A stretch of DNA of 64,000 nucleotides, from assembly GCA_021292105.1 (NCBI GenBank), contig CM037864.1, positions 48,062,094 through 48,126,093 of the forward strand, read 5' to 3'. Below are positions 22,594-64,000 of the stretch, one piece after another; the first letter of the stretch is position 1; every line of letters begins with the position of its first letter. The translations under genes and the position numbers were made by a program. The notes below the pieces were generated by a model that saw only the letters and a list, made by a program, of their open reading frames with translations, ran no database searches and was not told the DNA's origin. The stretch comes from Anadara kagoshimensis (Eukaryota > Mollusca > Bivalvia > Arcoida > Arcidae).

Positions 22594-24247
22594 AGCTCAC
22601 CTGGCCGAAGGCCATGTGAGCTTTTGCCATCACTTGGCGTCCGTCGTCATCCGTCGTCGTCGTCCGTCCGTAAACTTTTCACATTTTGACTATCTCCTCT
22701 GACACCACTGGAGCAATTTTAACCAAACTTTACAGGAATGATGTATGGAAGGTCCTTCACTTAGATTGCCGAAATTTTTTTGATCCGCCAAAAAACATGG
22801 CTGCCAGCACAGAAGATAGTTTAACATTGGACCCTATGGGAAAAATGCATGTTTAACCATTTCCTCAGACATGACTGAAGAAAATTTAACCAAACTTTAC
22901 AGGAATGGTGTAAGGAAGGTCCTTTATTTGGATTGCCAAAATTTTTCTGATCCGTCAAAAAACATGGCTGCCAGCGCAGAAGATAGTTTAACATTGGACC
23001 CTATGGGAAAAGCATATATTTTCTATCTTCTTTGAAACCGCTGAGCTAATTTGAACCAAACTTTACAGGAATAATGTTTGTAAGGTCATTTACTAAGATT
23101 GCCCAAATTTTTCTGATCCGCCAAAAAAAAATGGCTGCCAGGGCCAAACAAAGTTTAACATTGGGCCCTATGGGAAAACGCACATCTTGGCTATCTCCTC
23201 TGAAACGACTGAAGCGAATTCAATTAAACTTTACAGGAATGGTGTATGTAAGGTCTTTTGCAAAGATTGCCGAAATTTTTCTGATCCGCCTAAAAACATG
23301 GCTGCCAGCGGGGAACATAGTTTAACATTGGACCCTATGGGAAAACACATTTTTGCTATCTACTCTGAAACTATTGAAGCAAACTTAACCAAACTTTAGA
23401 GAAATGATGTATTGGAGGTCCTTCACAAAGATTGCCAAAATTTTTCTGATCCGCCTAAAAACATGGCCGCCAGCGCAGAAGATAGTTTAACATTGGACCC
23501 TATGGGAAAAATGAATTTTTGGCTATCTCCTCAGAAATCACTGAAGCGAATTTAACCAAACTTCACAGAAATGATGTATAGAAGGTCCTTTACTTAGATT
23601 GCCAAAATTTTTCTGATCTGCCAAAAAACATGGCCGCCAACGCAGAAGATAGTTTAATATTGGACCCTATGGGAAAAGCATATATATGCTATCTCCTCTG
23701 AAGCTAGTGAAGCAAATTGAATCAAACTTTACAGGAATGATGTATAGAAGGTCCTTTACATAGATTGCCAAAATTTTTCTGATTGGCCAAAAACATGGCT
23801 GCCAGTGCAAAAGATAGTTTAACATTGGACCCTATGGGAAAAAACGCATTTTTGACTATGTCCTCAGAAATGACTGAAGCAAATTTAACAAAACTTCACA
23901 GGAATGATGTATAGAAGGTCCTTTACTTAGATTGCCAAAATTTTTCTGATCCGCAAAAAGACATGGCTGCCAGCGCAAAAGATGGTTAAACATTGGACCC
24001 TGTGGGAACAACACGTTTTTGACTGTCCTCAGAAATGACTGAAGCAAATTGAACCAAACTTTACAGGAATGATGTATAGAAGGTCCTTTACATAGATTGC
24101 CAAAATTTTTCTGATCTGCCATAAAACATGGCTGCCAGCGGAGAACGTTGTTTCACATTGGACCCTATTGGAAAAGCATATATACAAATTTGCTTTAAAA
24201 GCATTTTAGTCAGGTGAGCGATACAGGCTCATCCTGAGCCTCTGGTT
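22594..24247 (+). mobile_element. E1: Helentron-associated/'pearl'-like tandem-repeat element
   Basis: After a T run it starts AGCTCACCTGGCC-GAA-GGCCATGTGAGCT, a near-perfect hairpin. A (CCGTCGT)n-like CpG-rich stretch follows, then nine units of about 165 bp. It ends CAGGTGAGCGATACAGG with the hairpin AGGCTCA-TCC-TGAGCCT and CTGGTT. GCTCACCTG near the start and CAGGTGAGC near the end form subterminal inverted repeats. This layout fits non-autonomous Helentron-associated elements, with a 3' hairpin, subterminal inverted repeats and a minisatellite core, and the 'pearl' elements described in bivalves. No Rep/helicase is encoded. Family assignment is by structure only. Confidence 0.75.
22680..24180. 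repeat. E1 tandem core, nine units of about 165 bp
   Basis: Units contain CTATCTCCTCTGAAA, AAACTTTACAGGAATGATGT, AAGGTCCTT, GATTGCCAAAATTTTTCTGA, ACATGGCTGCCAGCGCAGA and TAACATTGGACCCTATGGGA. Units are diverged by point changes and small indels. Open frames through the array are by-products of few stops in the unit. Confidence 0.9.
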
Positions 24248-24500
24248 TATATACTACATTCTCAATTATAAATACAAATAATAAATAATGCAGTTTTTAT
24301 ATATCATGTTTGAATACATACGATATAGGAGAAAACGGCAATATACAGTTTGACAAGATAAAACCGGAAGCGACTTCCGGTAGGCGTGTACGAGTTACTT
24401 CCCTTTTGTTGCCGTTTTTAACATCGGTTATCTCGAACTCCGGATAAGTCGAACTTTTTGCATTTCCCCGTCGAGTTCGAGATAACGAGAGTCAACTGTA

Positions 24501-25858
24501 TAATAAATCCCAGTAAAAGCTGACCAAGAGAAATGGGAGTGAATTTATTGTAGCTCACCCTACAAAAAGCACCAATGAGACATAACTGATAGAAATAGAA
24601 TTCTGTAGTGAAGCTTATTTGGTAAAAGTGCCTGCGAAGCAGATAGCTGAATGTAACCTTTGACACAATTCCACAGCCATTACTGACAATGAACACTGTA
24701 AAAGAAGGATGTCAAAGTTAAGCATTGGCTGCTAAGTATGAGAACTCTGTCATGGTTCAAAATCTAAAAATACCCCGGACAGTCGGCGAATGTATCTTAT
24801 GTGTAGATATTAAACATGTAATAAGCTAGTGAATCTCATCAGAAACCTGGTGCCAAAGTAATGAGTGGTAAAGTAAACATTTAAGAGATGTTCCTGTACA
24901 AAGCCAAAAATGGCCTGTAATAGCTAAATGATGCAATGACTTACTATATAAAACAGTAAAATCCAGCCTCCGAATTTCAACCTGGTAAAAACCAGGGTGC
25001 TCCTACACAAAGAAGGGACATCAAAATACATAACACAACATAGGTTTGAGAATGAATAAGATGATTATATCTCATTTTGTATGATCCTTCTTAATCTGTA
25101 GATATAATTAAACAATTTATGTACATAAAACAGACATCTTGTTTTCTGGAAATATTAAGCCAAGATTATAGAATCTATAAAAATGAACAAAACAAGTGGT
25201 ATTAACCCTCAAACATAAAAAATTGATTCCCAAAAATAAATAAAAAAAGGAGAAACAATTCTTATTTTATCACGTAGTGGTAATAAATATTCCTATCATC
25301 TTCCTAATAGTTCAATCGTAACTCTGACAACATAATGTGGTTCTTACATCATCTATCATTTACAAACACCAATACGACCATGATTTGTAACAAACAGCTG
25401 CTGAAACTGACGGAATATGACGTCAGTAAAACAATAAAGTTTATACAAACCAGATTGGTTTTTATGATTTATCTAATTAAAACAAAATGATACACTTACT
25501 TACCTATCTCTGATCTTTAAAAATCTAGACAGTTTGTTTGTTTGTTTTTATTCCATATTTTTTCCAGACATGTGCACATTGCAATTCTGTTTCCTATAAA
25601 TGTTATGATAAATTTGACATTGTATGGGTTGATAAAGACAATGTGTATCATGATTTGGAGAAAAATAAAACATTAGTTCCTTAAATACACACTTTTTTGT
25701 CCTTACAAGATTAAAAGATTTGTAAATTTTGGCAATTAATAAAGTTCTGATGTTTTATGTTGGATTAATGGGAAAATGTTGTTTGTTTAAAAGGGTCATA
25801 AGCAATGTTTACTGTTCATGAATAGAATACCTTAATAAAATTGTTAGTAAGTAGAGTT
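24501..25858. other. AT-rich spacer
   Basis: No exon, RNA gene or array is recognised. A single eroded SINE follows at 25859. Confidence 0.5.
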
Positions 25859-26090
25859 GAATAAAGGTGTTTAGGTCCCACACAAGATTCTTTCACTTAC
25901 AATGAGGCAGTCTATTCTGGGAATGAGGTGGAAACCAGAGTGCCTGTAAAAAAAAAAAACACTTTTGGCAAGCAAACTGGCAAACAAACTGGCAAACAAA
26001 CTCACACTAGAATCTGCCAAAGAAGGGTTCAAACCCAGGGGGATGAGAGGTGCTATAATCCGGTTTTTGACCACTTGGCAACCAAGACTC
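25859..26090 (-). mobile_element. tRNA-derived SINE, family 3, minus strand
   Basis: The minus strand reads GGTTGCCAAGTGG (box A-like), then GGGTTTGAACCC (a perfect box B-like palindrome) and a body ending AAAGAATCTTGTGTGGGACC. A short (GGCAAACAAACT)n repeat sits in the body. Confidence 0.6.
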
Positions 26091-26356
26091 CTTGTAAATG
26101 AAATAAAGTAATTTGTATCTGAAAAATATGTACTATGTTATTTATAACCACTGCAATAAAGAACATAAAGCAAGAATTGAACAAAATAAGGAAAACAAGA
26201 GAAGATATACTCATGTTGATATAAAAATATTATACACTTCATGAACAAACAGTCAATCATGCCCTTTAGTCTTGTACTGAGTTTTGTGTTCAGTGTTCAT
26301 CTCTAGTATAGGTCAATTATCGGTCTTTTACTTCTGATGGCAGAGTGTTTATATGC

Positions 26357-26392
26357 ATGGGAGAGTCTGTACTTCCTAAGCTGGTAATAAAA
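26357..26392 (+). CDS. Coding exon 1 (start codon) of an adaptor-like protein
   Basis: The exon encodes the 12 residues MGESVLPKLVIK and runs into a strong donor, GTAAGT, at 26393. An in-frame TAG lies about 48 bases upstream, so translation cannot extend far, and the ATG at 26357 is the only in-frame start before the donor. The splice leaves phase 0, matching the phase-0 entry of the next exon 225 bp away. I take this as a first coding exon because of the phase match and donor quality. It could instead be an alternative first exon of a longer transcript whose other exons lie outside the window. No TATA box or promoter element is clear upstream. Confidence 0.55.
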
Positions 26393-26617
26393 GTAAGTTG
26401 TATGTGTGTATAATCATGCCTTTCTATGCTTAATTTGTCACAACATCCTTAATGTTAAAATAGACTCGCTGTATACCTTGCCATCAGATCGTAGACAACC
26501 TATAACCAAGTTGTCCGATTGCATTCAGCCAATGAAATTAGTTCCTTCCAAAGTGTATGCAAACTTGTTATTTTCTAGTCAAAATTTTTGAAAACCATGT
26601 ATTTTTGTATTTTGCAG

Positions 26618-26749
26618 ATAGAACTTTTAACACCAAAACAGAATGGATCAGTGGAGAATGATGACCAAGAGAAGAGCTCTGCTTCAATTAAAACCATGTG
26701 GAAGAAAGCTTTCAAAAGCTTAAAGACAAGCTCAGCAGAAAATAAATTG
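26618..26749 (+). CDS. Coding exon 2, basic WKKAFKSLK segment
   Basis: The acceptor TTTTTGTATTTTGCAG precedes the exon and GTGAGT follows it. Its 44 codons are open in phase 0 at both ends. The product starts IELLTPKQNG, has an acidic-polar stretch (ENDDQEKSS) and then the basic amphipathic segment KTMWKKAFKSLK, ending SSAENKL. The composition is markedly less AT-driven than surrounding intron and the codons look used. The basic aromatic segment could bind membrane or a partner, but that is inference. The family is discussed under exon 4. The intron that follows is about 10.7 kb and contains E2 and several SINEs. Confidence 0.75.
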
Positions 26750-27118
26750 GTGAGTTATTCTCTTTGATATTGATTAAATAAACTTTTCAAGTAAAATCGA
26801 AAATAGGAAGGTTTCAACAAGTGTCTGGATGGACAGAAGGATGAGAGTTTGAATTTAATAATAATAAATAAATAGACATTTTCAGCTTATCTGTATAAAT
26901 TAAAACAATATTTATGACATAGGTCTCAGTACCCAACAGCAGCAATGTCATATAGGTACCTAACATAAGTGCAAGTTTAGATTCTGTGTTTTTAATGAAG
27001 TAGATGTGTACACAAGGTACACTTTCTGACAGTATTGTCCTTGTATAAAAAGGTAACTGGGGATGATTCTGTGGCCAAGCTAACTCAAAGAAGGCAAGTT
27101 GTTTAAACTAGCAAGAAC

Positions 27119-27375
27119 TGTCAGTAAAGCTGACTTATCCCCCTCTCTCTCTCCACCCACCCCAGTTTTGTCACCATGCATCTAAATCTGGTATGCAACA
27201 CATTGCCTTAGCTTGATTTACATTTGTGCCAAGTTTATTTAAATTCCATCCATAGCCATGGAAGATGTAGAACATATGTGATATTGAGACAGACGGACAA
27301 ATAGATGGAGAGATGGTGATTCCTATATACCCCCTAAACTTTGTTTGCAAAGTGGGGGTTATAATTACCAAAGTT
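27119..27375 (-). mobile_element. Short tandem-repeat-element relative, minus strand
   Basis: The minus strand starts near 27370 with TAACCCCCACTTTG-CAAA-CAAAGT..AGGGGGTATA, a terminal hairpin like that of the element at 46229. A variable segment carrying ATCTATTTGTCCGTCTGTC follows. It has the same plan as E1-E5 (terminal hairpin, CCGTC-type stretch, AAACTTGG block) but no tandem core. The far end is not defined. Confidence 0.5.
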
Positions 27376-27474
27376 TTTACATCACATACAATATATGTCT
27401 GTTAGTAAAGAAGTAAATCAGTAAATTTGTATCCAACATTGCCATTTTGAAACTACAAACCCCACCTCTATCAA

Positions 27475-27778
27475 ACTACCACGGTAGCTCAGTTGGTAGA
27501 GTGGAAGGTAGTGGGTTTCAATCCCTAGCGGGTCTGATCCAAGACTTGAAAGTGGGTAGTGACTGTTTTTTCGCCAAGCACAGCATTATGAAGTGAAAAT
27601 CACAGGTCTGGTGTCATCATAGGCTTGACACAATGAGGAACCCTACTGTAAAATGCCATCTGCGCAACACACAGACAAAATTTCTGCACCTTTGCCTATA
27701 GCTGGGGATGTCTCAATATAAATCTCTGTGAAATATCTTTGACTGGGACATTAAACTCCATTTCTCAAATCAAGTGAC
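27475..27778 (+). mobile_element. tRNA-derived SINE, family 1, most complete copy
   Basis: The head has CCACGGTAGCTCAGTTGGTAG (box A) and GTGGGTTTCAATCCC (box B-like) at tRNA spacing. The body has GGTCTGATCCAAGACTTG, GTGACTG, GCCAAGCACAGCATTA and GCCTATAGCTGGGGATGTCT, and the tail is GACTGGGACATTAAACTCC. It lies in intron 2 of the gene, in the sense direction. A cloverleaf acceptor arm is absent. Confidence 0.85.
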
Positions 27779-28369
27779 CTCTAGCAAGGGTATTCATGGG
27801 TTAACTGAACTTGTAACTGGATCCTATAGCATTTTGCCTACTAACCCAAGTTTGTACTCTGTAAGATGCCAAAACTTGATAAAAAAGAATTATTATAACA
27901 AGGATAATTTGTTAATGCATATAACATAAAAACAATTCAATTAGAATTTAGCTTTTGTAATTTATGACAGGGCTTGTCATTATTTTAAAGTGGTATTTCT
28001 GATGATAGGGGTATGTCATTAAAGCAGAATTTTTGATGTGTATTTAACAGTCATTGTGACTTAACAGATATAGCCAGCATGTAAAAACTCAGCATGTAGG
28101 CTGTAACTTAATGGTGCAATAAAAATAAGGCTTAAGAGATTCTCCTTGTTTTAGAAGTACATGTAATAAAAAATGTGCTAAAACCCAAATTTTGTCTTTC
28201 TCTTTCTAAAAAAACCATACTAAATCATTTGTTCATTATGATGCACTAATGTACCTCATGAAGTTTTTTGATGATATAATGATTTGTAAGCTGTTTCAGT
28301 TTTCCAAACATAGAGTCTGTGTGTTAAAAACAAAGCCTCTCTGTTTTACACCAAAGTCTCAATTCTTTT

Positions 28370-28765
28370 ACTTACATCAAGGTTTCGAACTGCCAAGGGA
28401 AGAAAGCCTCTGGCATTCAGTCACTCTGACAAACTAAGATCTGCTCTATAAAGACAATTAGAAGCACTGTGATCTGTAAGCAAACTGGTGCTCTCTGCAA
28501 GTGTGGAACAATTAATATAGCTGGTTGACTTGCATTCTAGCGATACATTGATATGTGAAGAATACAGGACTGTCCAGAGAAAACCACTGACATTTAGCAA
28601 ACTGACAAACTTTGTTAAACTAGGATCTGCTCCGGGCTAGGAGTTGTAGGCAATGAAAATCACTGTGATCTGCAAGCAAGCTGGTGCTTTCTGCAAGGGT
28701 AGAACATTTCAAATAGCTGGTTGACTTCCATTCTAGCGATACATTGATATGTGAAGAGCAACTGA
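28370..28765. repeat. Direct duplication, about 195-bp unit
   Basis: Blocks GCACTGTGATCTGTAAGCAA, CTGGTGCT[CT]TCTGCAAG, TAGCTGGTTGACTT and CATTCTAGCGATACATTGAT occur at 28468-28560 and again, with few changes, at 28661-28760. A weaker relative (CTGTGATCTGCAAGCCAGCA) is at 7133. Confidence 0.8.
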
Positions 28766-29195
28766 TCAGAACCTTTAATTTTGACAGTTATCGTCATAGA
28801 TGTAACAAAAATAAATGGAAATACTAAAATACATAATTCTTAACATCAAAAGGGTTATCATCAATATGTGAAAGTAATTATGAAAGTAATTAAGAAGAAA
28901 GATCAATGAATGCATAAATGACTTAGTAATGTTACACCTCTACAAATACAGCAGCTTAACAGGTGGGTTAACGAACAGTGCTCCTGTCTGGTGGTACAAC
29001 CCCGGTCATGTACATAAATATCTTAATGAAAATGTTAAAGGTGAAACAAAACTCTAAAACAATATGGTACATTAAGGCTTTACTCATCCCTTTAACATCC
29101 TGAGACAAAATAAGAAGAGATAATTATTATGTTAATATACAGTAACTTTGGATATTGGTGTCAGTTAATTTTCAGGAAAATCATTTTTTGTTTTT
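28766..29195. other. Intronic AT-rich spacer
   Basis: No feature is recognised between the duplication and E2. Confidence 0.5.
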
Positions 29196-31500
29196 AGCTC
29201 ACCTGACCGAAGGTCATGTGAGCTTATGGCATAGCGCAGCGTGTGTATGTGCGTGTGTGCGTCGTTAACACCTATTTTCGACTTCTCCTCTGAAACTACT
29301 GGACAGTTTTTAATGAAACTTTGTCAGAAGTATATATGGGTCGGTGCAATTCAGATTTGTTCGTGGCGTTGCCATGGCTACCATAACTAGGTCAAGGTGA
29401 CCTAGGGGTGCAAAAATCTTAAAAAATCTTCTTCTCCGAAAGTACTGATTGGAGAAAAAATCTGATGTGATATTTGGCTTCTCTAGGGTCTTAAGCCTAT
29501 AGTTTGTTCATTTTGTAAAAATCGGATAAAAAATAGGTTACGCGTTTTTGCGTTTAATTTTGAAAAAATCGTAAAATAGCTTCAAATTGTTATAACTTGA
29601 CTATTTGACCAGATAATGACATGGGGTTTTCAGTTTTGACATCTTCTTGTTAGTATCTTCAAAATGAGGTCAAGATCAATTGTGAAGGTCGTGACCTAAT
29701 TTTTTTTACCTCTGATTATAATTATTATCTCGAAAACTATAAACTTTTTGTATAGGCATGTATATTAGAATGTTGTAGGTATTGATACAACAATCATTTT
29801 GATGTATAGAAAAAGGTCATGGGTTCAAAGGTCAAGGTCACAGATGTGAAACAATACCGAAATGGTTAATTATCTCGAAAACTATAAACTTTTTGTATAG
29901 GCATGTATATTAGAATGTTGTAGGTATTGATACAACGATCATTTTGATTTATAGAAAAAGGTCATGGGTTCAAAGGTCAAGGTCACAGATGCGAAACAAT
30001 ACCGAAATTGTTAATTATCTCGAAAACTATAAACTTTTTGTATAGGCATGTATATTAGAATGTTGTAGGTATCAATACAATGATCATTTTGATGTATAGA
30101 AAAAGGTCATGGGTTCAAAGGTCAAGGTCACAGATGTGAAACAATACTGAAATGGTTAATTATCTCGAAAACTATAAACTTTTTGTATAGGCATGTATAT
30201 TAAAATGTTGTAGGTATTGATACAACGATCATTTTGATGTATAGAAAAAGGTCATGGGTTCAAAGGTCAAGGTCACAGATGTGAAACAATACTGAAATTG
30301 TTAATTATCTCGAAAACTATAAACTTTTTGTATAGGCATGTATATTAGAATGTTGTAAGTATTGAAACAACGATCATTTTGATGTATAGAAAAAGGTTAT
30401 GGGTTCAAAGGTCAAGGTCACAGATGCGAAACAATACCAAAATGTTTAATTATCTCGAAAACTATAAACATTTTGTATAGGCATGTATATTAGAATGTTG
30501 TAGGTATTGATACAATGATCATTTTGATGTATAGAAAAAGGTCATGGGTTCAAAGGTCAAGGTCACAGATGTGAAACAATACAGAAATGGTTAATTATCT
30601 CGAAAACTATAAACTTTTTGTATAGGCATGTATATTAGAATGTTGTAGGTATTGATACAACGATCATTTTGATGTATAGAAAAAGGTCATGGGTTCAAAG
30701 GTCAAGGTCACAGATGCGAAACAATACCAAAATGTTTAATTATCTCGAAAACTATAAACATTTTGTATAGGCATGTATATTAGAATGTTGTAGGTATTGA
30801 TACAATGATCATTTTGATGTATAGAAAAAGGTCATGGGTTTAAAGGTCAAGGTCACTGATGTGAAACAATACCGAAATGGTTAATTATCTCGAAAACTAT
30901 AAACATTTTGTATAGGCATGTATATTAGAATGTTGTAGGTATTGATACAATGATCATTTTGATGTATAGAAAAAGGTCATGGGTTTAAAGGTCAAGGTCA
31001 CAGATGTGAAACAATACCGAAATGGTTAATTATCTCAAAATCTATAAACTTTTTGTATAGGCTTGTATATTAGAATGTTGTAGGTATTGATACAATGATC
31101 ATTTTGATGTATAGAAAAAGGTCATGGGTTCAAAGGTCAAGGTCACATATGCGAAACAATACCGAAATGTTTAATTATCTCGAAAACTATAAACATTTTG
31201 TATAGGCATGTATATTAGAATGTTGTAGGTATCGATACAACGATCATTTTGATGTATAGAAAAAGGTCTTGGGTTCAAAGGTCAAGGTCACAGATGTGAA
31301 ACAATACTGAAATGGTTAATTATCTTGAAAACTATTAACTTTTTGTATAGGCATGTATACTAGAATGTTGTAGGTATTAATACAACGGTTATCATGATGT
31401 AAAAAAAAAGTCATTGGGGTTTAGTATTTATGTTTTCTTTAAATCTATCAGCTAGCCATTAGTTATCAGGTGAGCGTATCAGGCCCATGGGCCTCTTGTT
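29196..31500 (+). mobile_element. E2: Helentron-associated/'pearl'-like element with 145-bp core
   Basis: It starts AGCTCACCTGACC-GAA-GGTCATGTGAGCT after a T run. A (GTGC/GTGT)n-like stretch follows, then about 450 bp of unique leader that includes CTTCTCCTCTGAAACTACTG. Next come 12 units of about 145 bp, then the tail ATCAGGTGAGCGTATC with the palindrome AGGCCCATGGGCCT and CTTGTT. It lies in intron 2 of the gene in sense orientation. It is nearly collinear with E4. No protein is encoded. Confidence 0.8.
29735..31400. repeat. E2 tandem core, 12 units of about 145 bp
   Basis: Counting TATAGGC[AT]TGTATA gives 12 occurrences (from about 29751 to 31346) spaced 143-148 bp. Each unit also holds CATTTTGATGTATAGAAAAA and GGTTCAAAGGTCAAGGTCA (nine exact copies and two single-base variants in E2), then TTAATTATCTCGAAAACTAT. 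Confidence 0.95.
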
Positions 31501-31885: not shown

Positions 31886-31888
31886 TTG

Positions 31889-32844: not shown

Positions 32845-33236
32845 GTACCACTGCTATGGTTGCTTATTTGGTAAAGTGCTCTGCTCTATATGTAGATTTA
32901 ACCACTGCAGTAGCTCATTTGGTAGAGTGCTCACTCTGTAAGTGGAAGGTCTTAGGTTTGAATCCTGACTGGGCCTGACCTAAGACTTAAAAGTGGGTAG
33001 TGACTGTTCTTTCAACAAGCATTTGGCATTACAAAATGAAAGTTACGGTTCTTTCGAGTGGGAACTTAAAATAAACAAGGTCCCATGTCACAGTGGGCTT
33101 GGCAACCTAAAGAACCCTTCTGTATAGCGCAATGCACAGGCAAAATTTCTGCATTTTTGCCTATAGCTGGCAACGTCTAATAGATATTAGTGAAATATTC
33201 TTGACTGGGACATTAAACACCATTACTCAATTTAAC
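32845..33236 (+). mobile_element. tRNA-derived SINE, family 1, with two heads in tandem
   Basis: A full SINE runs from 32898 (CCACTGCAGTAGCTCATTTGG, then AGGTTTGAATCCTGAC as box B) to the tail GACTGGGACATTAAACACC. Immediately upstream, 32848-32895 (CCACTGCTATGGTTGCTTATT, GGTAAAGTGCTCTGCTC, TATATGTAGATTTAA) is a second, truncated tRNA-like head in the same direction. Nested insertion or template switching would both explain it. Confidence 0.8.
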
Positions 33237-46185: not shown

Positions 46186-46228
46186 CACCATATTTCTTTT
46201 TTCCTGTTTTTTTTTTTTTTTTGTTTTT

Positions 46229-46490
46229 ATACCCCCCACTTAAAAAGTGGATGGTATATAGTGATAGGGGTGTCCGTCCGTGTGTCCGTCCTTCCGTTAC
46301 ACCTTAGGGTACCTATATCTTATCCGCAACTTCTCCTAAACCCTTCAATGGATTTTCATGAAACTTTCACACAATCTTTGTGATATAATGTAGATGTGCA
46401 CCTTCTATTTAAAAATTTGATCCTATGGATTTTTTAGGGGGGGGGGGGGTATTTTTGTGAGCTTGTGGCTCATAGTTTTTCTAGTTTTAT
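46229..46490 (+). mobile_element. Single-unit relative of E1-E5 (no tandem core)
   Basis: After a T run, ATACC-CCCCACTT-AAA-AAGTGG-ATGGTAT forms a terminal hairpin. GTGTCCGTCCGTGTGTCCGT follows, then CAACTTCTCCTAAACCCTTC and TTTTCATGAAACTTTCACAC. A final hairpin TGAGC-TTGTG-GCTCA precedes TAGTTTTTC. The same parts list as E1-E5 in only about 260 bp, without minisatellite. Its terminal sequence is unrelated to AGCTCACC but has the same fold. Likely a separate subfamily; compare 27119-27375 (minus). Confidence 0.6.
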
Positions 46491-48107
46491 TTATTTTTTG
46501 TTAATTACTATTTATCCAACTGTAACCTTGAGTTGAAACCAACAGGTTCCACCCATGTAAGTGGGTATACCTAGAAGTGTTAAAACACAAACTGTTTAAG
46601 CTGCATTCTGCAACTTTACCAACATCACAGTGTAAACAAATACATTAAGTCACATTATTAGTGAAATAAAGAATGGATTTTTGATCAAAGTAAGTCACTT
46701 ATTGTCATGATATCAGCTGTAATCTGGAAAATGTTTTTCTACATAGATATGGCTAATAAATGGGTTGTGATGAAGATAGCAGTATTGTGTGGCCCAAGCT
46801 ATTCTTTCTTATGGAAAGTCTTTAAAAATGTAAAAGCTGTTTCTCCTGCAGTTACAACTGATAAATTTTAATTGTTTATCAAATTCATTTATTTATTTTT
46901 TGCATTTATCATGATATAAATTGTTGATATACTCCATTTGCTTTCTGATAAAATGGTAAAAATGTCCCATAATTTTCACTGAAAACCCTGGGTTATCTTG
47001 TTTAATGTCCCATATTTCCATTTTTGAATTATAAAATGTATGAAGTCTGGATATTTGGTCTATTAATACAATCTCAGAATTTTAATTTTCATATATTCTA
47101 GCAGAAGATTTATTGAAGTGACTTACAAAAAGTGAAAACTCACAGGCGGAGTTTAATTTTGAATTTCTTAAAGTTGTTTTAGAGTTATCTCCCTTTGAGC
47201 TTATTATCAGTATTCCAATATACAACAAAGCTCCTTTTTTGGTTTATTTATGAATGAGCTGTATAAAGAAATAAATAACATTGTTTTATGCAAACCAGGA
47301 TAATCGTGTATACCAAGATTTTGTTTATCAAGTACCTTTGTTCCTTTTTTATCTTTATTACATTTACCTCTACAGCAGTAATGATTTTGAAATATTTTCA
47401 CAATAATGTTAGCATAAATATCAGTTATGTGTAGAATCTCTTTTGCTAAAAATTGGATATTCCATTGCCATGCCAACAAAAAACAAAATAATAAAAAAAT
47501 ATATTGTTCAAGTTCTATACAACAGTATACATGTATAGATATGAGAATTGATATTCAAAAAAGAAAGAGAAAAACCAAAGACAAAATATTTATTCATAAA
47601 CTTTCACTGTTTTTACTTTTCTAGCTTAAACAGTGATGCTTAAGGGATTCAAAATTCTCTTTTTATCTCTCAAAAAATGTTGATTTTTTATAATATTTAA
47701 AAGATTAATGATCAAAATTATCATATTTTAACCACATCATCTGGACAGAATTGAGTGATATTTTAAGAAATCAGAATTACATTCCCAGTTATTAGAGTAT
47801 TCTATAGAGATGTATTTTTGTACAGATATTACCTTGTAACATTTATTGGCAAGAGAAAAGCTTTGAGATGATTTAATCTGAGTGTTTTTATCATTAAATT
47901 TGTTGTACAAATTGTTTTTTATATTTTTGTTCCTGATATCAAATGATACAGTTTTACTATTAAGATTAAATATTAATGTAATTGTATTCATAGTTATACT
48001 ATAAATCAACTGTTATTCACATACAATAACTTTCATGTGTTTCTGCAAGAAACAAAATGCAAAAATAATCACAACAGTTAATGGTTGTTAATTGTGTTCT
48101 GATATAT
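46491..48107. other. Intronic AT-rich spacer
   Basis: Very AT-rich sequence without exon-like or repeat structure that I can define. Open frames here are AT-driven. Confidence 0.5.
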
Positions 48108-52007: not shown

Positions 52008-53234
52008 AGCTCACCTGAGCCAAAGGCTCAGATGAGCTATTGCAATCTATCATCGTCCGTCGTGCATCATGTGTAAACTTTACATTTTAATCTTCTCCTC
52101 CAAAACTACTGGGCCAAATTTGATGAAACTTGGTGATTATTGTGCCTGGGTAACAGCCTTTCAAAATTGTGTTCGGGGTTTGGCCACGCCCAACAAGATG
52201 GCAGCCGTTACTAAAAATAGTAAAAAGACAAAAAAATCTTCTTCTCTGAAACCAAAAGGTGCAGGCCAATTTTGATTTGATATTTGGATTCAGCATACCT
52301 GGGAACATTAAAATTGTGTTTTTCATGAAAATTGAACGGAAAATAGGTTATGCGTTTTTGCGTAAAATTATGTAATTTTGAAAATGAGACATTTATTGTT
52401 ATAACTCAATAACGGCTGAAGATAATTGTATGGAGTTTTCACTGTTGATCTTGTCTTGCTATTTTCTTCCAAAAGATGTCAAGGTCAAAGGTCAAGGTCA
52501 TGTCCCTGTTTTTGACCTTTGATAAAAAATGCTATTTTTTAAACATTTCAGGTGATAATGGCATGGGAGTTTCAGTTTAATGTAGGTATTGACATGACGA
52601 TCATTTTGATACATAGATCAAGGTCATGGGTTCAAAGGTCAAGGATGCACAACTATTACCATTTTAGTTGATTATCTACAAAACTATTAACTTTTTTGTA
52701 TAGGCATACATATTAGAATATTGTAGGTAATGGCACAATGGTCATTTTGATATATTAATAAAGGTCATGGGTTCAAAGGTCAAGGTCACAGATGCAAACA
52801 AGTACTGAAATGGTTAATTATAAATAGAAACTGTAATATTAGAATATTGTAGGTATTGGCCTAACAGTCATTTTGATATATGAATAAAGGTCATGGGTTC
52901 AAAGGTCAAGGTCACAAATGCAAGCAAGTTCTGAAATGGTTGATTATCTCAAAAACTATAAACTCCTTGTATAGTCATATATATTGGAATATTGTAGGTA
53001 TTGGTCTGATGATAATTTGGTATATGAATAAAGTTCATGAGTTCAAAGGTCAAGGTCACAAATGCAAATAAATACTGAATTGGTTAATTATCTTGAAAAC
53101 TAAATATTTTGTATAGGCATGTATGCTAGAATATTGTAGGTATTGGCCTAATGATCATTTTGATATATGAATGAGGGTTATGGGTTCAAAGGTCAAGGTC
53201 ACAGGTGAGCGTTAATGCCCATGGGCCTCTTGTT
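52008..53234 (+). mobile_element. E3: Helentron-associated/'pearl'-like element
   Basis: It starts AGCTCACCTGAGCC-AAA-GGCTCAGATGAGCT, then CATCGTCCGTCGTGC and the leader with CTTCTCCTCCAAAACTACTG and AAGATGGCAGCCGTTAC. About five units of about 145 bp follow, then the tail CACAGGTGAGCG with TGCCCATGGGCCTCTTGTT. It is collinear with E5 in its leader and distinct from E2/E4 there. It lies in intron 3 of the gene in sense orientation. The interrupted tandem unit gives its pre-insertion site. Confidence 0.8.
52575..53205. repeat. E3 tandem core, about five units
   Basis: Units are homologous to those of E2/E4 but diverged: AGAATATTGTAGGTA, TCATTTTGATATATGAATAA, AGGTCATGGGTTCAAAGGTC, AAGGTCACA.ATGCAA. 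Unit boundaries are blurred by deletions around 52815-52850. Confidence 0.8.
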
Positions 53235-55625: not shown

Positions 55626-55756
55626 AAAAGAAATGTTAGCGGTAGGAAACTTTCCCTGCTTTGACCTTCTGAAATATTTTGTGATAAGAAATTTCCATGG
55701 TTCTGACTGTAGAGAAAGTGTACCAAGAGAAATAAGAAAGTTTAGCTGAGAAGATG

Positions 55757-55828
55757 AAGAGTAACTTTGAAAATCGTGAATATTTTTTCCTATGAGTAAC
55801 TTTGAAAATCGTGAATATTTTTCCTATG
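55757..55828. repeat. 34-bp tandem duplication upstream of exon 4
   Basis: Two copies of GAGTAACTTTGAAAATCGTG plus AATATTTTTCCTATG are adjacent, with one T indel. They lie about 120 bp upstream of the exon 4 acceptor. Confidence 0.9.
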
Positions 55829-55942
55829 AAATGTTTCTTCTTATACAGGATCAGAAAATGAGAAAAATATTCCAAAAGATAATTTGGGTTCAGTAATTAA
55901 AGATTCATTCTATTAATTGTGGTTTGATTTTTTTACTTGCAG

Positions 55943-56128: not shown

Positions 56129-59100
56129 GTAAGCCTTACCTCAAACTTTACCTTCTTCTTTAGAGAGTCAGTCAGTACACAGGTTTATTGTCTGTCATGG
56201 TTTTCTTTGATTGGGTGATCTTTTTATATCTCTGATTAGATGGTAACTTAGTTGTTTTTATGCGGTAAGTATACTTATCATGTGTCTATGGAAAATAACT
56301 GAAAGAAGGGACAACTCAAGAAATTACTGATACTCTGACTTAACATGGTAAGTATTATAAACCATGTTCAAATTGCTCACTCTTGGACGCTCTTTTGGAG
56401 CTCTTTTACCAATTGAGCTCAAACTGAGCAATTTATTTAGATTTTATATCCCAGTCAAGATTATTTCCTTTGTATCATGATAACATCAGTTACAAGGCAA
56501 GTTGGAGGAGTTAATGTCAATGCATTAAAGTGGAATAATGGTGTTTTACATCAAGATTCTTTCACTTATTTGTAGGCGGTCAGCTTTTGGATGTATGATG
56601 GCGCTGGACAATACAATTGACCTTAAGCAAGCAAACTAACATTTTTTTCACTATTATCTGCCAGAAGAGCACCCATAAGCCTGATGTTTAGACTGCTGCC
56701 CCCTAGACCTGATTTATAGTAATGAACAATGAGATTTTCTGTATTTAGTCATAACACTTGCTGTTTGGTGAAAGACTAGCCACTATTTTTCAGATTGTTT
56801 TTAAAATCAGTCAGGGATCCAACTTGTTCATCCAAGTAAAAATTATTTCACTTATATTGAGATGTTTAAATCAACAGGTGAAGCTGCATAAATTTATATT
56901 TGTGCAACGTAATAATATTCACAGATGGTTCCTTGTCTGAACACACACAAACCATGATAAAGACATATCTTTAAAAAATATCTCTAGAAGAACCCTTTGT
57001 CCTATGGCTGTATTTCTAAATGCTGAGTGCTTTGTAAAAGAACTATCTCAGTTAAATGCATTTACCTTATCAAACATCTGAGCTTCAAACCCCTGATGTT
57101 TTACTTAATGAGTGAGCGTTCTACCAACTTAGCTAACTTTATCCCTTACATTAATCAAGAAAAGTTAAAAGGTAAGTGTTAATAAGTCAGAGACCTATGT
57201 ACTGTTGTAAGTGGTAGGTATGTACTGCATTTCAGTATTTAATTTCTGGATTGTTTTTAGTTTTTTCAGTACACAGAGTTTGTTAGTTCATGTTTTCACA
57301 GTGCACATAGATTTGAATTTTAATTTGATGCCTGTGTGGTGATAGGATGATTTTGAATTTGATGTTTGTGGTGATTGGTTAATTTTGAATTTGATTTCTG
57401 TGGTGGTTGGTTAATTTTACTTCTTGTTTTTCACATTGAGGCTGTGACTGTTTATTTTGTGATCTTCATGCATTTCTGCCACTTTAATTAAGCTTGCTGA
57501 ATATGACAAAAGCTCGAGAACAAATTCAGCATGTGAAATTTAAAGCATGTGTTTGGTGGGTCAGTATTTTTAAAGTGAAAGGTAACATCATTAATGTAAC
57601 AGCTGCAACAAGCATGAGTAGTTTGTGAACAGTAACCAGGTAAGCTTTTCTTTTTACCTCCCTCTTATATTCCTGAGCTTCTATAAGCATGATATTTCCC
57701 AGCTGAACTACCCAAAGCTCTTACCATTGCCTCCCTCTTCCTTTCTTGATAAAGTCATATATAGACTGTAGCATAAAACATGGCTTCTCATATAAGTGTT
57801 GTATTTATTCTTTTTGAGAATTCAAGTAGTTAAGTAATAGATTTTAAGTTAATTATGTGTTGCAGTGAAAGTGGTATTCTGAGTTTGCTGTGAGCCACTT
57901 CTGAGTATGGTGTGAGAATGACTTTTACTTATTTCAATGGCTCTGAAAATTGTGTGAGAATGATATTTACTCTATTCAATAGATATTCAGGAAGAATTTT
58001 GTAAACTAGACTTATAATTTACTTTTTCAAAATGGCTAGAATTTTGTTCAAAGTTTGCAGTGAGTTAAAAGCTTGTTGATAGTTTATCATGAGCTGAATT
58101 TGGTTTACAGTTTTTAACTAGCTTAAATTTAAACTGTTTAACAATATATAGCAAACATTTGGTAAAGTAAATAAGTAGTTTATACCTTGTTATAAGCTAC
58201 AACAATTTGTTCTAAGCTTGCTTGTGAGCTACAACAATTTGTTCTAAGCTTGCTTGTGAGCTACAACAATTTGTTCTAAGCTTGCTTGTGAGCTACATTT
58301 TAGTGTCTGGTTTGCTGCAAAATAATTATCTTTTGGTTTTCATTTTACGATAACAAATATTAAACTATCAATTTGCTGCAAGCTAAAACTTAATTCAGTG
58401 TGTTACAAGCTACCATTTGTTTATAAGTTTACTGATTGAGCTAAAGTCTGGTTTACAGTTTGCTATGAGCTACAATTTAATTTGATTATAAAGTTTGTTG
58501 TGAGACAATGTTTGGTTTAGTTTGCAGCGAGCTGAAATGCAATTAACTGTTTTCTAAGAACTGTAAGCTAAAATTTGGTTCACAGTAATCTGTGAGGAAA
58601 ACTTTAGTTTGAAATAACTTGCTGTGAAAGCTTGCTGTTGACTTATGACTGAAATTGATCATTTACTTGCTGCGAAAGCTTGCTGTTGACAGACAAAATG
58701 ACATTCATTGCTCTATAAGAATACACTAAAGTTACACTTGATAATGACTTGGAGCTATCCGGGTACTAGATATATCGGATTTGAAAGAACAACAGAGATA
58801 CAGAGTTGTTAAACTTCTAATTAATGACAATGGTGTCTTTAAGAAAAATAATGGTGAAATAATTTCTTAGGTATTTGGAGACATGGAATTTGTATACAAT
58901 AAAATGCATAGAAATCAAAATCATGAGGTTATAAATTAGAGATTAAAGCAAATGGAATTCAGAGTAAAATTTCAAAAAAAAATTCTGAAACAAATAAATT
59001 CAAAATAATGGTTTCACATGTCACAAAATCTACTTGCTGATAGTAAAAACAATGTATGTGAGCTGATCAATAAAAATATCAAAATATAAAATAATTTTGA

Positions 59101-59619
59101 AGTCTGAAAATTTTGAAATGTGAGACATAAATTTTTAAAAAAAGACTAAATTGCAACTTAAAGCATATTGTTAGACAATGATTTGGTGGATTCAGATTCC
59201 AAATGACCTATGATCAAACCTTTTGGACATTTTTTGTGTTTTAGCTAATTAGGTTCATCTGTTGAATGAGATAATCTTACATTACTAAGAGACGCTTCTG
59301 AATATGCCTGAAAATGATGGCATTGCGGGAAATTGAATTTTTGCCATGAAATGCATTCTTGGAGTTTCCATAACGAGGACACTCTGACAGGACGTACACA
59401 ACTCAACCCAATTTACTATATCATTGAACAATCATTGGTCATGGTTATCCATTTTTGGGGTTTAAAAGATCTTTTTGGGAGGTTTTAAAAGATGTAGCCC
59501 TGACAGCTCTACTTTATACTGACTTGCTACTAACATGAGTTACTAACAGATACTGTTGTTGCTATGGCAATATCTGTTAATGTTGAATCATGTTCTGTTT
59601 TTTGTTTCTGTTTTTAAAG
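56129..59619. other. Intron 4 (provisional), mostly unannotated
   Basis: It holds minus-strand SINE-like fragments: 56440-56590 with CCAGTCAAGATTATTTCC and ATCAAGATTCTTTCACTTAT, and 57085-57150 with an inverted tRNA-like head whose reverse complement reads GTTAGCTAAGTTGGTAGAAC. A 32-bp repeat (58193-58300) and a long, very degenerate GAGCTACAATTTGGTTTACAG-type repetition (57850-58680) are also present. No further coding exon with good splice sites and phase 1 entry was found. Confidence 0.5.
58193..58300. repeat. 32-bp tandem repeat, three units
   Basis: GAGCTACAACAATTTGTTCT plus AAGCTTGCTTGT repeats three times essentially without change. It sits in a broader degenerate array of related words. 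Confidence 0.85.
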
Positions 59620-59648
59620 GTACAAAAGATTCCCAACAAACAGAATGA
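59620..59648 (+). CDS. Possible terminal coding exon 5
   Basis: A long pyrimidine tract ending TTTCTGTTTTTAAAG precedes GTACAAAAG. Joining in phase 1 from exon 4 gives Gly, then TKDSQQTE and a TGA stop at 59646-59648. AATAAA lies at 60012-60017 with T/G-rich sequence after it, consistent with a 3' untranslated region of about 360 bases. A different phase would give a 27-residue open stretch starting VQKIPNKQND, but no exon here supplies that phase. If exon 5 is not used, transcripts would have to continue past 64 kb, or retain intron 4 and stop at 56161. Confidence 0.35.
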
Positions 59649-60483
59649 CAGCTTAGTTAGGAGATCATTGAAGGGGTTCCAATTACCTCAGAGGGGTTTA
59701 TAATCTGTAAATTATGTAGAAATAGGGGTTTAATTATCATAATTTATGTAAATGTTGTTTTTTATAAATAGGATATTTTGTACATAGGATTAAGTTAATT
59801 TTAGTGCCAAAGTTTTTTAAATATGCAATTCCAATATTTAATGAAGTAGTGATATAGCAAAAACAATATAAGTTACCTGAATGTGCTGATAAAAAGGCTG
59901 GATCCGTCTGATGGTGATTTTTACAGTGACATGTTTGTGTTTGATACCAATTTCTATGATAACTTTGATTTTATTTGAGGCTGGATTTTGTGATGCCAAC
60001 TATGTCTAGAAAATAAATCATGTTTGCTCTGCCATAAGCTTTTGATGATAATTGTCAGAGCTGAATATCTATGTGTAGCCAGCAAGCTAATGTGCAGACC
60101 TCCCTGTAAGCTTTTGACACAAGATGGAGGTTTTATGATGCAATACAAACCTCAAACAAAAAATGGAACATTCCATTGTAAATTTACAATGTTCAACATA
60201 GGGTTTAAATCAACTCAAACTTAATCAAAAACTTGAGACAAGTTTGTTATGTTCTGTACGCCTATTATAGCAACTTTAGAGGAATATGAGGCAAGTTTGA
60301 ATGTAAGTGTTATAGAAGGCAAGTTTGGCTGAACTAGTATATAACTATTGTATTGTGCCAAAATACTTATTTATTCATGCCAGGTACTTCTGTTAATCAG
60401 AAATACTCCATTTTAAACTCATAAGTTTATTTAATTGAGAAAAATACATTCAAAGTCACAATGAAATCATAAGTTAGGTTTTT
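59649..60483 (+). other. Possible 3' untranslated region and downstream spacer
   Basis: If the exon at 59620 is real, sequence to about 60030 is 3' untranslated. It has no other recognisable content apart from AT-rich stretches and the AATAAA noted separately. Confidence 0.35.
60012..60017 (+). terminator. Candidate polyadenylation signal AATAAA
   Basis: A canonical AATAAA is followed within 10-20 bases by TGTTTGCTCT. It would serve the transcript ending in the exon at 59620. AATAAA is frequent by chance in sequence this AT-rich, so support is weak. Confidence 0.3.
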
Positions 60484-62828
60484 AGCTCACCTGACCAAAG
60501 GTCATGTGAGCTTATGGCATAGCGCAGCGTGTGTATGTGCGTGCGTGTGTGCGTGCGTGTGTGCGTGCGTGCGTGCGTGCGTGTGTGCGTCGTTAACACC
60601 TATTTTCGACTTCTCCTCTGAAACTACTGGACAGTTTTTAATGAAACTTTGTCAGAAGTATATATGGGCCGGTGCAATTCAGATTTGTTCGTGGCGTTGC
60701 TATGGCTACCATAACTAGGTCAAGGTGACCTAGGGGTGCAAAAATCTTAAAAAATCTTCTTCTCCGAAACCAATGATTGGAGAAAAAATCTGATGTGATA
60801 TTTGGCTTCTCTAGGGTCTTAAGCCTATAGTTTGTTCATTTTGTGAAATTCAGATAAAAAATAGGTTACGCGTTTTTACGTTTAATTTTGAAAAAATCGT
60901 AAAATAGCTTCAAATTGTTATAACTTGACTATTTGACCAGATAATGACATGGGGTTTTCAGTTTTGACATTTTCTTGTTAGTATCTTCAAAATGAGGTCA
61001 AGGTCAATTGTGAAGGTCGTGACCTAATTTTTTTTACCTCTGATTATAATTATTATCTCGAAAACTATAAACTTTTTGTATAGGCATGTATATTAGAATG
61101 TTGTAGGTATTGATACAACTATCATTTTGATGTATAGAAAAAGGTCATGGGTTCAAAGGTCAAGGTCACAGATGCGAAACAATACCGAAATGGTTAATTA
61201 TCTCGAAAACTATTAACATTTTGTATAGGCATGTATATTAGAATGTTGTAGGTATTGATACAACGATCATTTTGATGTATAGAAAAAGGTCATGGGTTCA
61301 AAGGTCAAGGTCACAGATGTGAAACAATACTGAAATGGTTAATTATCTCGAAAACTATAAACTTTTTGTATAGGCATGTATATTAGAATGTTGTAGGTAT
61401 TGATACAACAATCATTTTGATGTATAGAAAAAGGTCATGGGTTCAAAGGTCAAGGTCACAGATGCGAAACAATACTGAAATGGTTAATTATCTCAAAAAC
61501 TATAAACATTTTGTATAGGCATATATATAAGAATGTTGTAAGTATCGATGCAACGATCATTTTGATGTATAGAAAAAGGTCATGGGTTCAAAGGTCAAGG
61601 TCACAGATGTGAAACAATACTGAAATGGTTAATTATCTCGAAAACTATAAACTTTTTGTATAGGCATGTATATTAGAATGTTGTAGGTATTGATACACCG
61701 ATCATTTTGATGTATAGAAAAAGGTCATGGGTTCAAAGGTCAAGGTCACAGATGTGAAACAATACTAAAATGGTTAATTATCTCGAAAACTATAAACTTT
61801 TTGTATAGGCATGTATATTAGAATGTTGTAGGTATTGATACAACAATCATTTGGATGTATAGAAAAAGGTCATGGGTTCAAAGGTCAAGGTCACAGATGC
61901 GAAACAATACTGAAATGGTTAATTATCTCAAAAACTATAAACATTTTGTATAGGGATATATATAAGAATGTTGTAGGTATCGATGCAATGATCATTTTGA
62001 TGTATAGAAAAAGTCATGGATTCAAAGGTCAAGGTCAAAGATGCAAAACAAAACCAAAATGGTTAATTATCTCGAAAACTATAAACATTTTGTATAGGCA
62101 TGTATATTAGAATGTTGTAGGTATTGATACAACGATCATTTTGATGTATAGAAAAAGGTCATGGGTTCAAAGGTCAAGGTCACAGATGTGAAACAATACT
62201 GAAATGGTTAATTATCTCGAAAACTATAAACTTTTTGTATAGGCATGTATATTAGAATGTTGTAGGTATTGATACAACGATCATTTTGATGGATAGAAAA
62301 AGGTCATGGGTTCAAAGGTCAATGTCACAGATGCGAAACAATACCAAAATGGTTAATTATCTCAAAAACTATAAACATTTTGGATAGGCATTTATATTAG
62401 AATGTTGTAGGTATTGATACATCGATCATTTTGATGTATAGAAAAAGGTCGTGGGTTCAAGGGTCAAGGTCACAGATGCAAAACAATACTGAAATAGTTA
62501 ATTATCTTGAAAACTATAAACTTTTTGTATAGGCTTGTATATTAGAATGTTGTAGGTATTGATACAACGATCATTTTGATGTATAGAAAAAGGTCATGGG
62601 TTCAAAGGTCAAGGTCACTGATGCAAAACAATACCAAAATGGTTAATTATCTCGAAAACTATAAACTTTTTGTATAGGCATGTATATTAGAATGTTGTAG
62701 GTATTGATACAATGGTTATCATGATGTAAAGAAAAAAGTCATTGGGGTTTAGTATTTATGTGTTCTTTAAATCTATCAGCTAGCCATTAGTTATCAGGTG
62801 AGCGTATCAGGCCCATGGGCCTCTTGTT
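60484..62828 (+). mobile_element. E4: Helentron-associated/'pearl'-like element with 145-bp core
   Basis: It starts AGCTCACCTGACC-AAA-GGTCATGTGAGCT. A (GTGC/GTGT)n stretch longer than in E2 follows (60528-60592), then a leader nearly identical to E2, 12 units of about 145 bp, and the tail ATCAGGTGAGCGTATC with AGGCCCATGGGCCTCTTGTT. High identity to E2 over leader and tail points to a shared recent source. Only one T separates its end from E5. Confidence 0.85.
61060..62720. repeat. E4 tandem core, 12 units of about 145 bp
   Basis: TATAGGCATGTATA or a one-base variant occurs 12 times from about 61079 to 62674, spaced 143-147 bp. GGTTCAAAGGTCAAGGTCA occurs exactly eight times, and three further units carry one-base variants. 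Confidence 0.95.
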
Positions 62829-62829
62829 T

Positions 62830-64000
62830 AGCTCACCTGAGCCGAAAGGCTCAGATGAGCTATTGCTATCTATCACCGTCCGTCGTCCGTCGTCCGTCGT
62901 GTGTCGTGCGTCGTGCGTAAACTTTACATTTTAATCTTCTCCTCCAAAACTACTGAGCCAAATTTGATGAAACTTGGTGATTGTTATGCCTGGGTAACAG
63001 GCTTTCAAAATTGTGTTCGGGGTTTGACCACGCCCAACAATATGGCTGCCGTTACTATAAATAGCCAAAAGACAAAAAAATCTTCTTCTCTGAAACCAAA
63101 AGGTGCAGGCAAATTTTGATTGGATATTTGGATTCAGGATACCTAGATACACTAAAATTGTGTTTTTCATGAAAATTGGACGAAAAATAGGTTACGCGTT
63201 TTTTTGCGTAAAAATTATGTAATTTTTAAAATGAGACATTTATTGTTATAACTTCATAATGGCTGAAGATAATTGTATGGAGTTTTCACTGTTGATCTTG
63301 TCTTGCGACTTTCTTCCGATTGATGTCAAGGTCAAAGGTCAAGGTCATGTCCCAGTTTTTGACCTTTGATAAAAAATGCTATTTTTTAAACATTTCTGGT
63401 GATAATGATGTAGGATTTTTGGTTAATTGTAGGTATTGACATGACGATCATTTTGATATATTGATTAAGTTCATGGGTTCAAAGGTCAAGGTCACAGATG
63501 TACAAGTTTACCAAAATAGTTAATTATCTGCAAAACTATGAACTTTTTGTATAGGCATGTATATTAGAATATTGTAGGTAATGGTCCAATGGTCATTTTG
63601 ATATATAAATAAAGGTCATGAGTTCAAAGGTCAAGGTCACAGATGTAAACAAGTACTGAAATGATTATTTATCTCTAAAACTATAGACTTTTTGTATAGG
63701 CATGTATATTAGAATATTGTAGGTAATGACCCAATGGTCATTTTGATATATGAATAAAGGTCATGAGTTCAAAGGTCAAGGTCACAGATGTAAACAAGTA
63801 CTGAAATGGTTATTTATCTCAAAAACTATAGACTTTTTGTATAGGCATGCATATTAGAATATTTTAGGTATTATCCTAACGATCATTTTGATATATGAAT
63901 GAAGGTCATGGGTTCAAAGGTCAAGGTCACAGATGTGAATGAATACCTGAATGGTTAATTATCTTGAAAACTGTTCACTTTTTGTAAATGCATGTATATT
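62830..64000 (+). mobile_element. E5: Helentron-associated/'pearl'-like element, cut by window end
   Basis: It starts AGCTCACCTGAGCC-GAAA-GGCTCAGATGAGCT, then CACCGTCCGTCGTCCGTCGT and a leader collinear with E3 (CTTCTCCTCCAAAACTACTG, AATATGGCTGCCGTTAC). At least four tandem units follow, of the TAGAATATTGTAGGTAATG type. The 3' end lies beyond the window. Confidence 0.85.

Follow-up and report, generated by a model that had tools for sequence, protein, structure and literature searches.

Rolling-circle transposons of the Helitron2 type, which include the Helentrons, were defined by their ends, where asymmetric terminal inverted repeats (ATIRs) are found (Bao and Jurka 2013, PMC3627910). In the account given there, Helitron-1N1_CQu and Helitron-1N2_CQu have a terminal hairpin formed by the 5′ ATIR with bases downstream of it, a 3′ ATIR upstream of a 3′ hairpin, and a TTTT insertion example; compensatory mutations are noted in one related pair of elements, and pairing of the 5′ with the 3′ ATIR is proposed to destroy the 5′ hairpin and so set the endpoint of replication. 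Five elements with ends of this kind, E1 to E5, lie in a 64,000-nucleotide stretch of the genome of the bivalve Anadara kagoshimensis (contig CM037864.1, C8:48062094-48126093; hereafter the window). By their sequence they are HINEs, i.e. non-autonomous Helentrons. We put the probability at roughly 0.8 that such HINEs are moved by a Helentron Rep(HUH)-helicase-endonuclease, that their 5′ hairpin is read by its shape on single-stranded DNA, and that the 5′ and 3′ ends form a switch.

As set out in PMC3627910, the 5′ hairpin, the compensatory changes and the principle of a repeat switch are already published for Helitron2. One pair is named in that account, whereas here there are about ten lineages in one animal genome and a Rep with an endonuclease. 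The newer parts are the genome-wide lineage evidence, an identified helper, and a recurring mismatch in the arm shared with the 3′ repeat, which is absent, as far as we know, from the account of Helitron2 in PMC3627910. An earlier note on this DNA had set these hairpins apart from ordinary end repeats. That holds against cut-and-paste transposons, but such hairpins are the normal state of Helitron2 and Helentron ends as described in the same paper. A full-text search for "Helentron" with "compensatory" returned no paper, though work using the name Helitron2 escapes such a search.

Cg_HINE of the Pacific oyster, as described in PMC7492417, likewise has a 5′ subterminal inverted repeat (subTIR) with a complementary inverted repeat (IR) and a microsatellite, a satellite-like array, a 3′ subTIR, a palindrome, an oligo-T target and no target-site duplication. 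Its authors could not connect these HINEs with an autonomous element, and a later oyster genome study reports that no autonomous element was detected for HINEs (PMC7992393); here, E2 is tied to an element we call Helentron B. The account of DINE-1, HINE-Mo and Helentrons in PMC4067079 also agrees in the subTIRs, the 5′ IR nested in the subTIR (DINE-1), the 3′ stem-loop, the central repeats, insertion at TT and a Rep-helicase-endonuclease partner. Covariation is not discussed in that account, and the likeness is one of description, not of sequence. FoHeli1 and FoHeli2 of Fusarium oxysporum are given the 5′ hairpins CAGCC-GAA-GGCTG and AGTCC-GAA-GGACT, with stems that vary between subgroups and a CC-GAA-GG core that is the same as in E1 and E2; they differ as fungal Helitron2 elements without endonuclease and with a TNAT/T insertion preference (PMC5148889). 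Finally, Helraiser resembles the present elements as an HUH Rep-helicase transposon with a hairpin stem exchangeable at little cost: swapping its 3′ hairpin stem is reported to leave about 90% activity, which a change of the loop (plus closing pair) did not (PMC4778049).

Covariation of the 5′ hairpin

On the forward strand of the window, AGCTCACC stands at the starts of five elements (22594, 29196, 52008, 60484 and 62830), each time abutting a T-run; two further matches, at 24552 (+) and 16072 (-), do not have the look of element ends. The elements and their parts are as follows.

22594..24245 (+): E1, HINE with ~167-bp tandem repeats, within another dispersed repeat; boundaries by empty sites
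22594..22622 (+): E1 5′ hairpin (5′ subTIR and IR), C8.T mismatch, C-GAA-G loop
24210..24219 (+): E1 3′ subTIR TCAGGTGAGC, complement of the 5′ arm
24225..24241 (+): E1 3′ palindrome AGGCTCA-TCC-TGAGCCT
29196..31498 (+): E2, HINE with 145-bp tandem repeats; boundaries by alignment to Helentron B
29196..29224 (+): E2 5′ hairpin, the same as that of Helentron B
31466..31475 (+): E2 3′ subTIR
31481..31494 (+): E2 3′ palindrome AGGCCCATGGGCCT
52008..53232 (+): E3, HINE; 3′ end set by analogy with E1 and E2
52008..52038 (+): E3 5′ hairpin, C7.A mismatch, AAA loop
53202..53210 (+): E3 3′ subTIR CAGGTGAGC
60484..62826 (+): E4, HINE of the E2 type
60484..60512 (+): E4 5′ hairpin, C8.T mismatch, AAA loop
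62794..62803 (+): E4 3′ subTIR
62830..64000 (+): E5, HINE of the E3 type, truncated by the window end
62830..62861 (+): E5 5′ hairpin, C7.A mismatch, GAAA loop

The earlier note had the five elements open with AGCTCA(C) and close their hairpins with (G)TGAGCT, and the sequences match: the inner stems are TGGCC-GAA-GGCCA in E1, TGACC-GAA/AAA-GGTCA in E2 and E4, and CTGAGCC-AAA/GAAA-GGCTCAG in E3 and E5. These stems differ and their inner parts pair, but they are three inner stems and not five independent cases of covariation, and one position is unpaired in every stem, C8.T in E1, E2 and E4 and C7.A in E3 and E5. The interval proposed for the elements, 22594-64000, does contain them all; it also includes unrelated sequence, and E5 is cut by its end.

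When the window was folded in 32-nt segments, one per 8 bases (n=7996, DNA parameters), six of the seven most stable segments were the hairpins of E1 to E5 and that of a relative at 27370. Hairpins of the d(GCGAAGC) type are unusually stable in DNA. Mini-hairpins have also been described as "extraordinarily stable" (PMC10527192).

Genome searches covered the 1.115-Gb assembly. The pattern AGCTCACC..GGTGAGCT, which demands perfect outer arms, occurs at 159 sites, against 0 in a reversed control; 50 of the 159 were listed and 20 regions drawn, L055 being off-site. Among the 50 listed hairpins, 38 have an inner stem of at least 4 bp, as do 20 of their 32 distinct inner sequences (re-dealt halves: mean 6.5, maximum 15). 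A body motif downstream of the hairpin occurs at 8112 sites, against 1 in the reversed control. From 100 places listed for it, 13 ending in CTGAA (internal repeat units) were dropped, and 78 of the 87 others were fetched in list order, with C1:14365751 skipped. The terminus is present in 73 of these 78 ends (68 distinct insertions), and the hairpin could be parsed in 72. Nine hairpin types recur in at least two rows, or eight once F1d, a single duplicated insertion, is subtracted. Both arms are present in 17 of 20 ends with an E1-type body, a sample drawn without regard to the hairpin; sampling by similarity to E3 gave mainly near-identical young copies and scant lineage information.

From one lineage to another, both sides of the inner stem change and its pairing is kept. 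MAFFT alignment of the hairpins gaps the stems wrongly, so pairs were counted on a hand-set slot table, which leans toward structure, and the 3′ letters were re-dealt by shuffling within its columns. Across 10 lineages, Watson-Crick pairs fill 53 of 53 inner cells (re-dealt mean 46.4), a result reached in 26 of 50000 re-dealings; the GAA form of E1 enters this table from E1 alone. Reduced to five distinct stems, 26/26 cells are paired, reached in 1247/50000. Addition of L052, L053 and L066, which were found via perfect outer arms and not via the inner stem, gives 67/67 cells (2/50000) or, on seven distinct stems, 36/36 cells (115/50000). As the shuffles treat related lineages as independent, none of these frequencies is a true probability. 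Counting F1d as a lineage (58/59 cells, 1/20000) was rejected, as both copies of it stem from a single insertion that was duplicated along with its surroundings.

The two-sided changes themselves are A-T (F2) versus G-C (F3/E1) at pair 11, C-G (F1a) versus T-A (F1c, found in five distinct insertions) at pair 14, and G-C versus A-T between L052 and L066. Two to three such inner-stem changes in one genome are newer than the published principle.

When each single copy was set against its nearest lineage, 10 of 436 pairs from 82 ends (98 ends, 91 with a terminus, less 4 duplicates and 5 unsortable) had changed on one side and 0 on both, in a count where a shared two-sided change is a lineage by definition. 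Two of the ten, in L084 and L148, are half-way forms at pair 14. In 62 copies without gaps that differ from three consensus forms at no more than 6 positions (F1c copies excluded, L148 and its duplicate L152 taken as two), substitutions affect 8 of 664 inner-stem sites and 25 of 1310 flank sites. The claim of base changes on both sides with pairing kept thus stands between lineages and fails in the single copies, where one-sided changes occur at the rates of unpaired sites; the lineage pattern is untouched by this. By Fisher's test on hand-counted changes, the lineages (3 two-sided, 0 one-sided) differ from the single copies (0 and 10) at p 0.0035, or p 0.015 without L052/L066 (2 two-sided, 0 one-sided). 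Neutral change after insertion would give such one-sided decay in dead copies. As single copies decay one-sidedly and lineages co-change, selection, if any, would act on the copies that transpose.

Element ends, autonomous Helentrons and the 5′-3′ switch

The 3′ ends of E1 to E4, within the window, consist of a subTIR of 9-10 bases, (T)CAGGTGAGC, complementary to the 5′ arm, followed by a palindrome, CTTG or CTGG, and T's. Internal arrays have repeats of 145 bp or similar, ~167 bp in E1. Among E1 to E5, empty sites were analysed for E1: its flanks, joined and searched genome-wide, gave 681 candidate places, of which 40 were scored and 10 fetched and aligned. The junction is spanned in all 40, and the 10 aligned sites read CCCGA-T5 or T6-ATATAC with no duplication; in the filled site the element stands between T5 and T3. 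The hairpin therefore begins at the first base past the T-run, and the insertion made no target-site duplication. Two other classes were ruled out, Helitron1 (5′-TC, CTRR-3′, A/T target) by the 5′ AGCT, the 3′ CTTG/CTGG and the T-tract, and a cut-and-paste miniature inverted-repeat transposable element by the lack of a target-site duplication at E1.

Two of the 104 genome matches to Pfam Helitron_like_N were traced to element ends, and these are Helentrons A and B. Helentron B (C9), about 18 kb long, has an open reading frame of 2611 aa with Helitron_like_N and PIF1 over the Pfam cut-offs and Exo_endo_phos slightly under (22.8 bits, cut-off 24.5). Its Rep region holds HIH and YxxxY, and its endonuclease call is backed by the typical motifs GDFN and SDH. 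An exact 10-mer subTIR search of the first 15 kb of Helentrons A and B found no convincing end pair, because both reach further; the ends came from copy-versus-copy alignment, in which the similarity of two Helentron B copies (99.5-99.9% identity) breaks off at the same two ends. A palindrome preceded by a 3′ subTIR that complements the 5′ subTIR is found in two copies of Helentron B and likewise in one of Helentron A. The latter (C1 and C3; 2529 aa) has a variant hairpin, with the 5′ start AGCTCAACTGGCTATAGCCAGCTGAGCT as read from C3 (part of it is lost from the C1 copy), and the 3′ end TGCCAGTTGAGC...AGGCCCTATTGGGCCTCTTG, read in one copy. Upstream of Rep, both Helentron proteins (L133:1135-8967, L131:1522-9108) match Pfam Herpes_teg_N, a protease-like fold, and DUF6570.

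The 5′ hairpins of Helentron B and E2 are identical, E2 1-1705 corresponds to Helentron B 527-2229 at 94.3% identity, and 36 bp near its 3′ end (2269-2304) to 18478-18515 at 94.7%. E2 resembles a Helentron B that has lost part of its interior, as does E4 to judge by its likeness to E2, and from these shared ends Helentron B is the identified candidate helper for the E2/E4 type. Since these ends are common to a Helentron with Rep, helicase and endonuclease, a fold of single-stranded DNA in rolling-circle transposition is strongly suggested.

The 5′ hairpin would fold on single-stranded transposon DNA and be read mainly by shape, as the start or recognition site of Rep beside a nick at the T-run. 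Once the displaced strand reaches the far end, the 5′ arm would swap its partner for the 3′ subTIR, and the opening of the hairpin would mark the end of the copied strand, in line with the published switch model (Bao and Jurka 2013). Two partners are available to the outer 5′ arm, the IR arm 20 bases downstream and, at the opposite end, the 3′ subTIR, and it would for that reason be fixed; the inner stem has one partner and would be free to covary. Arm and subTIR are AGCTCAACTGGC/GCCAGTTGAGC in Helentron A and GCTCACCTGA/TCAGGTGAGC in Helentron B, and the two shift together at two positions (A7-T/C7-G, G11-C/A11-T). The computed duplex of 5′ arm and 3′ subTIR (-13.3 to -16.4 kcal/mol) is favoured over the hairpin (-9.6 to -12.0 kcal/mol) in 5/5 elements (four distinct, E2 and B being alike), a comparison of a two-strand with a one-strand reaction that is only indicative. 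Cross-family duplexes are weaker (-8.2 and -10.3).

The mismatch at position 7 or 8 is present in 70 of the 72 parsed ends, the exceptions being L107 (inner stem lost) and L146 (rearranged), and none of the 72 is a fully paired full-length hairpin. It is C7.A in F1, C8.T, one place shifted, in F2, and A7.C in Helentron A. In E1 to E4 and in Helentrons A and B, the 5′ base left unpaired by this mismatch has a pairing partner in the 3′ subTIR; in F2, the T side of the mismatch shows four times the variation of the C side, and the C is part of the subTIR. This recurrence fits a hairpin kept weaker than the 5′-3′ pairing, and a mismatch-free hairpin would reverse the energy order (-16.5 kcal/mol, L053). 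That the mismatch is a tuned switch, letting the arriving 3′ end open the weaker hairpin and stop strand displacement, is a tentative idea that we rather doubt. Against it stand a small mismatch-free group among the 50 listed sites (5 with an AAAA loop and 2 with AATA) and the fact that, with lineages so few, an IR arm that drifts freely would give a similar picture.

Relatives and neighbouring sequence

Two relatives in the window differ in sequence.

46228..46495 (+): related short HINE-like element of a third subTIR family, 3′ palindrome GTGAGC..GCTCA; homology to a second copy stops at 46495
27324..27363 (-): 5′ hairpin of a fourth relative, of unrelated sequence; from the fold scan

Both had been said to hold a hairpin in the same place as E1 to E5. 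The hairpins are there, at 46228-46258 and 27324-27363 (-), the given position of 27370 being a few bases off. The family of the 46228 element has 85 motif sites; of 20 sampled, 16 start with TATAC and 4 are without a terminus. Its plainest copies form TATACCCCCGCTT-AAA-AAGTGGGGGTATA, and in many others the G/C runs are longer or shorter, the arms are often unequal and the pairing is imperfect. A search for the 3′ end of the 27370 relative did not find it.

Several observations concern the copies themselves. In L033, L103, L115, L159, L182 and L183 the left arm is lost, which brings the T-run up against ..AGCCAAAGG or a similar sequence; slippage between the hairpin's short direct repeats would have this effect. 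L148-L150, L152 and L153 (C1:10.90-11.27 Mb) share upstream flanks within 0.4 Mb; judged by these flanks, they trace back to two insertions of the E3 type, both of which have since been multiplied by local duplication. E5 starts immediately 3′ of the T-run at the end of E4 (62827-62830), apparently by insertion right at the border of this HINE of the other type. The repeat that hosts E1 (21961-24502; 681 candidate places) has 31-bp terminal inverted repeats, TATACAGTTGAATCTCGTTATCTCGAACTCG, and looks like a cut-and-paste DNA transposon.

Near-identical parts of the window (46331, 52041) recur about 558 kb on, at C8:48667738 and C8:48672162, with the same flank kept at E3 (L031); this is a segmental duplication or an assembly artefact. 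A tRNA-like stretch at 32908-32971 (Rfam RF00005, 34.1 bits; none by ARAGORN) adjoins a dispersed repeat and is probably a tRNA-derived short interspersed element. The seventh of the most stable segments is an unrelated palindrome, CAAGATGGCGTCCGCCGGCCATCTTG, at 6028-6053.

Explanations weighed and their meaning

The alternative that survives best, and an unlikely one, is that the symmetry is mutational: template-switching in replication would copy one arm onto the other (quasi-palindrome correction) without selection. Slippage in the hairpin does seem to occur, given the six ends without a left arm and the loss of the inner stem or loop in L105, L107 and L127. Arm-to-arm copying, however, should favour the pairing base. 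At T22 of F2 it is the least common of the three replacements (G 12, C 21, A 27; n=60), and at C8 it accounts for 2 of 14 (A 2, T 11, G 1); the retention of the mismatch in 70 of 72 parsed ends is likewise contrary to such copying. A mutational origin by this route is not supported.

Slightly less probable still is a hairpin that serves merely as a double-stranded inverted repeat for a protein dimer, as ordinary end repeats do. The outer arms AGCTCA..TGAGCT are invariant in 14 aligned hairpins, as such a dimer would have it, though these hairpins were largely found through those arms. The inner stem, however, pairs without its sequence being kept, which a dimer that reads sequence does not need, and the loops are of 3-5 nt and A-rich on the top strand. 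We give very little weight to the fold having its role at the RNA level, in transcripts of the element. Covariation by itself cannot separate RNA from DNA, but the hairpin lies at the very end of the transposon, abutting the T-run insertion point, it does not differ between Helentron B (18 kb) and E2 (2.3 kb), and no Rfam family matches the hairpins at gathering score. Chance, meaning five related copies with two or three inherited and unconstrained palindromes, could appeal to there being only three inner stems among E1 to E5, but it is largely refuted by the presence of the fold in a family of different sequence and in both autonomous elements, and by the seven distinct inner stems that form it.

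Recognition of a single-stranded hairpin by the Helentron machinery, together with the 5′-3′ switch, is therefore the reading we prefer, and a number of points weigh against it. The lineages behind the shuffle figures are few and related, the signal on the five distinct stems alone is modest (1247/50000), and the single copies changed only on one side. No autonomous partner for the E1 and E3/E5 types was found among the two Helentrons with ends obtained from the 104 Rep matches; the 5′ stems of Helentrons A and B differ from these types. The energies are indicative at most, and the bottom-strand hairpin is computed as slightly more stable in 10 of 12, so that either strand may be the one that folds; counts of G.T versus A.C on the top strand were few. 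Helraiser is a Helitron1, and the hairpin tested in it was the 3′ one (PMC4778049). The whole reading is one from sequence and computation. Of the selection on a folded single strand that had been proposed at the outset, the pairing is kept between lineages and single-stranded DNA is strongly suggested by the shared ends, while the RNA alternative stays at its low probability.

HINEs are very abundant in some invertebrates, as DINE-1 is in Drosophila and Cg_HINE in the oyster. In the relevant parts of the literature cited here, no biochemical test was seen of the way in which Helentrons recognise their own strand and bring it to an end. The lineages of A. kagoshimensis amount to natural stem swaps that keep the fold, and they come with an identified candidate helper protein. 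The reading makes a specific prediction, a hairpin weaker than the 5′-3′ pairing, which could be tested in an in vitro Rep assay.

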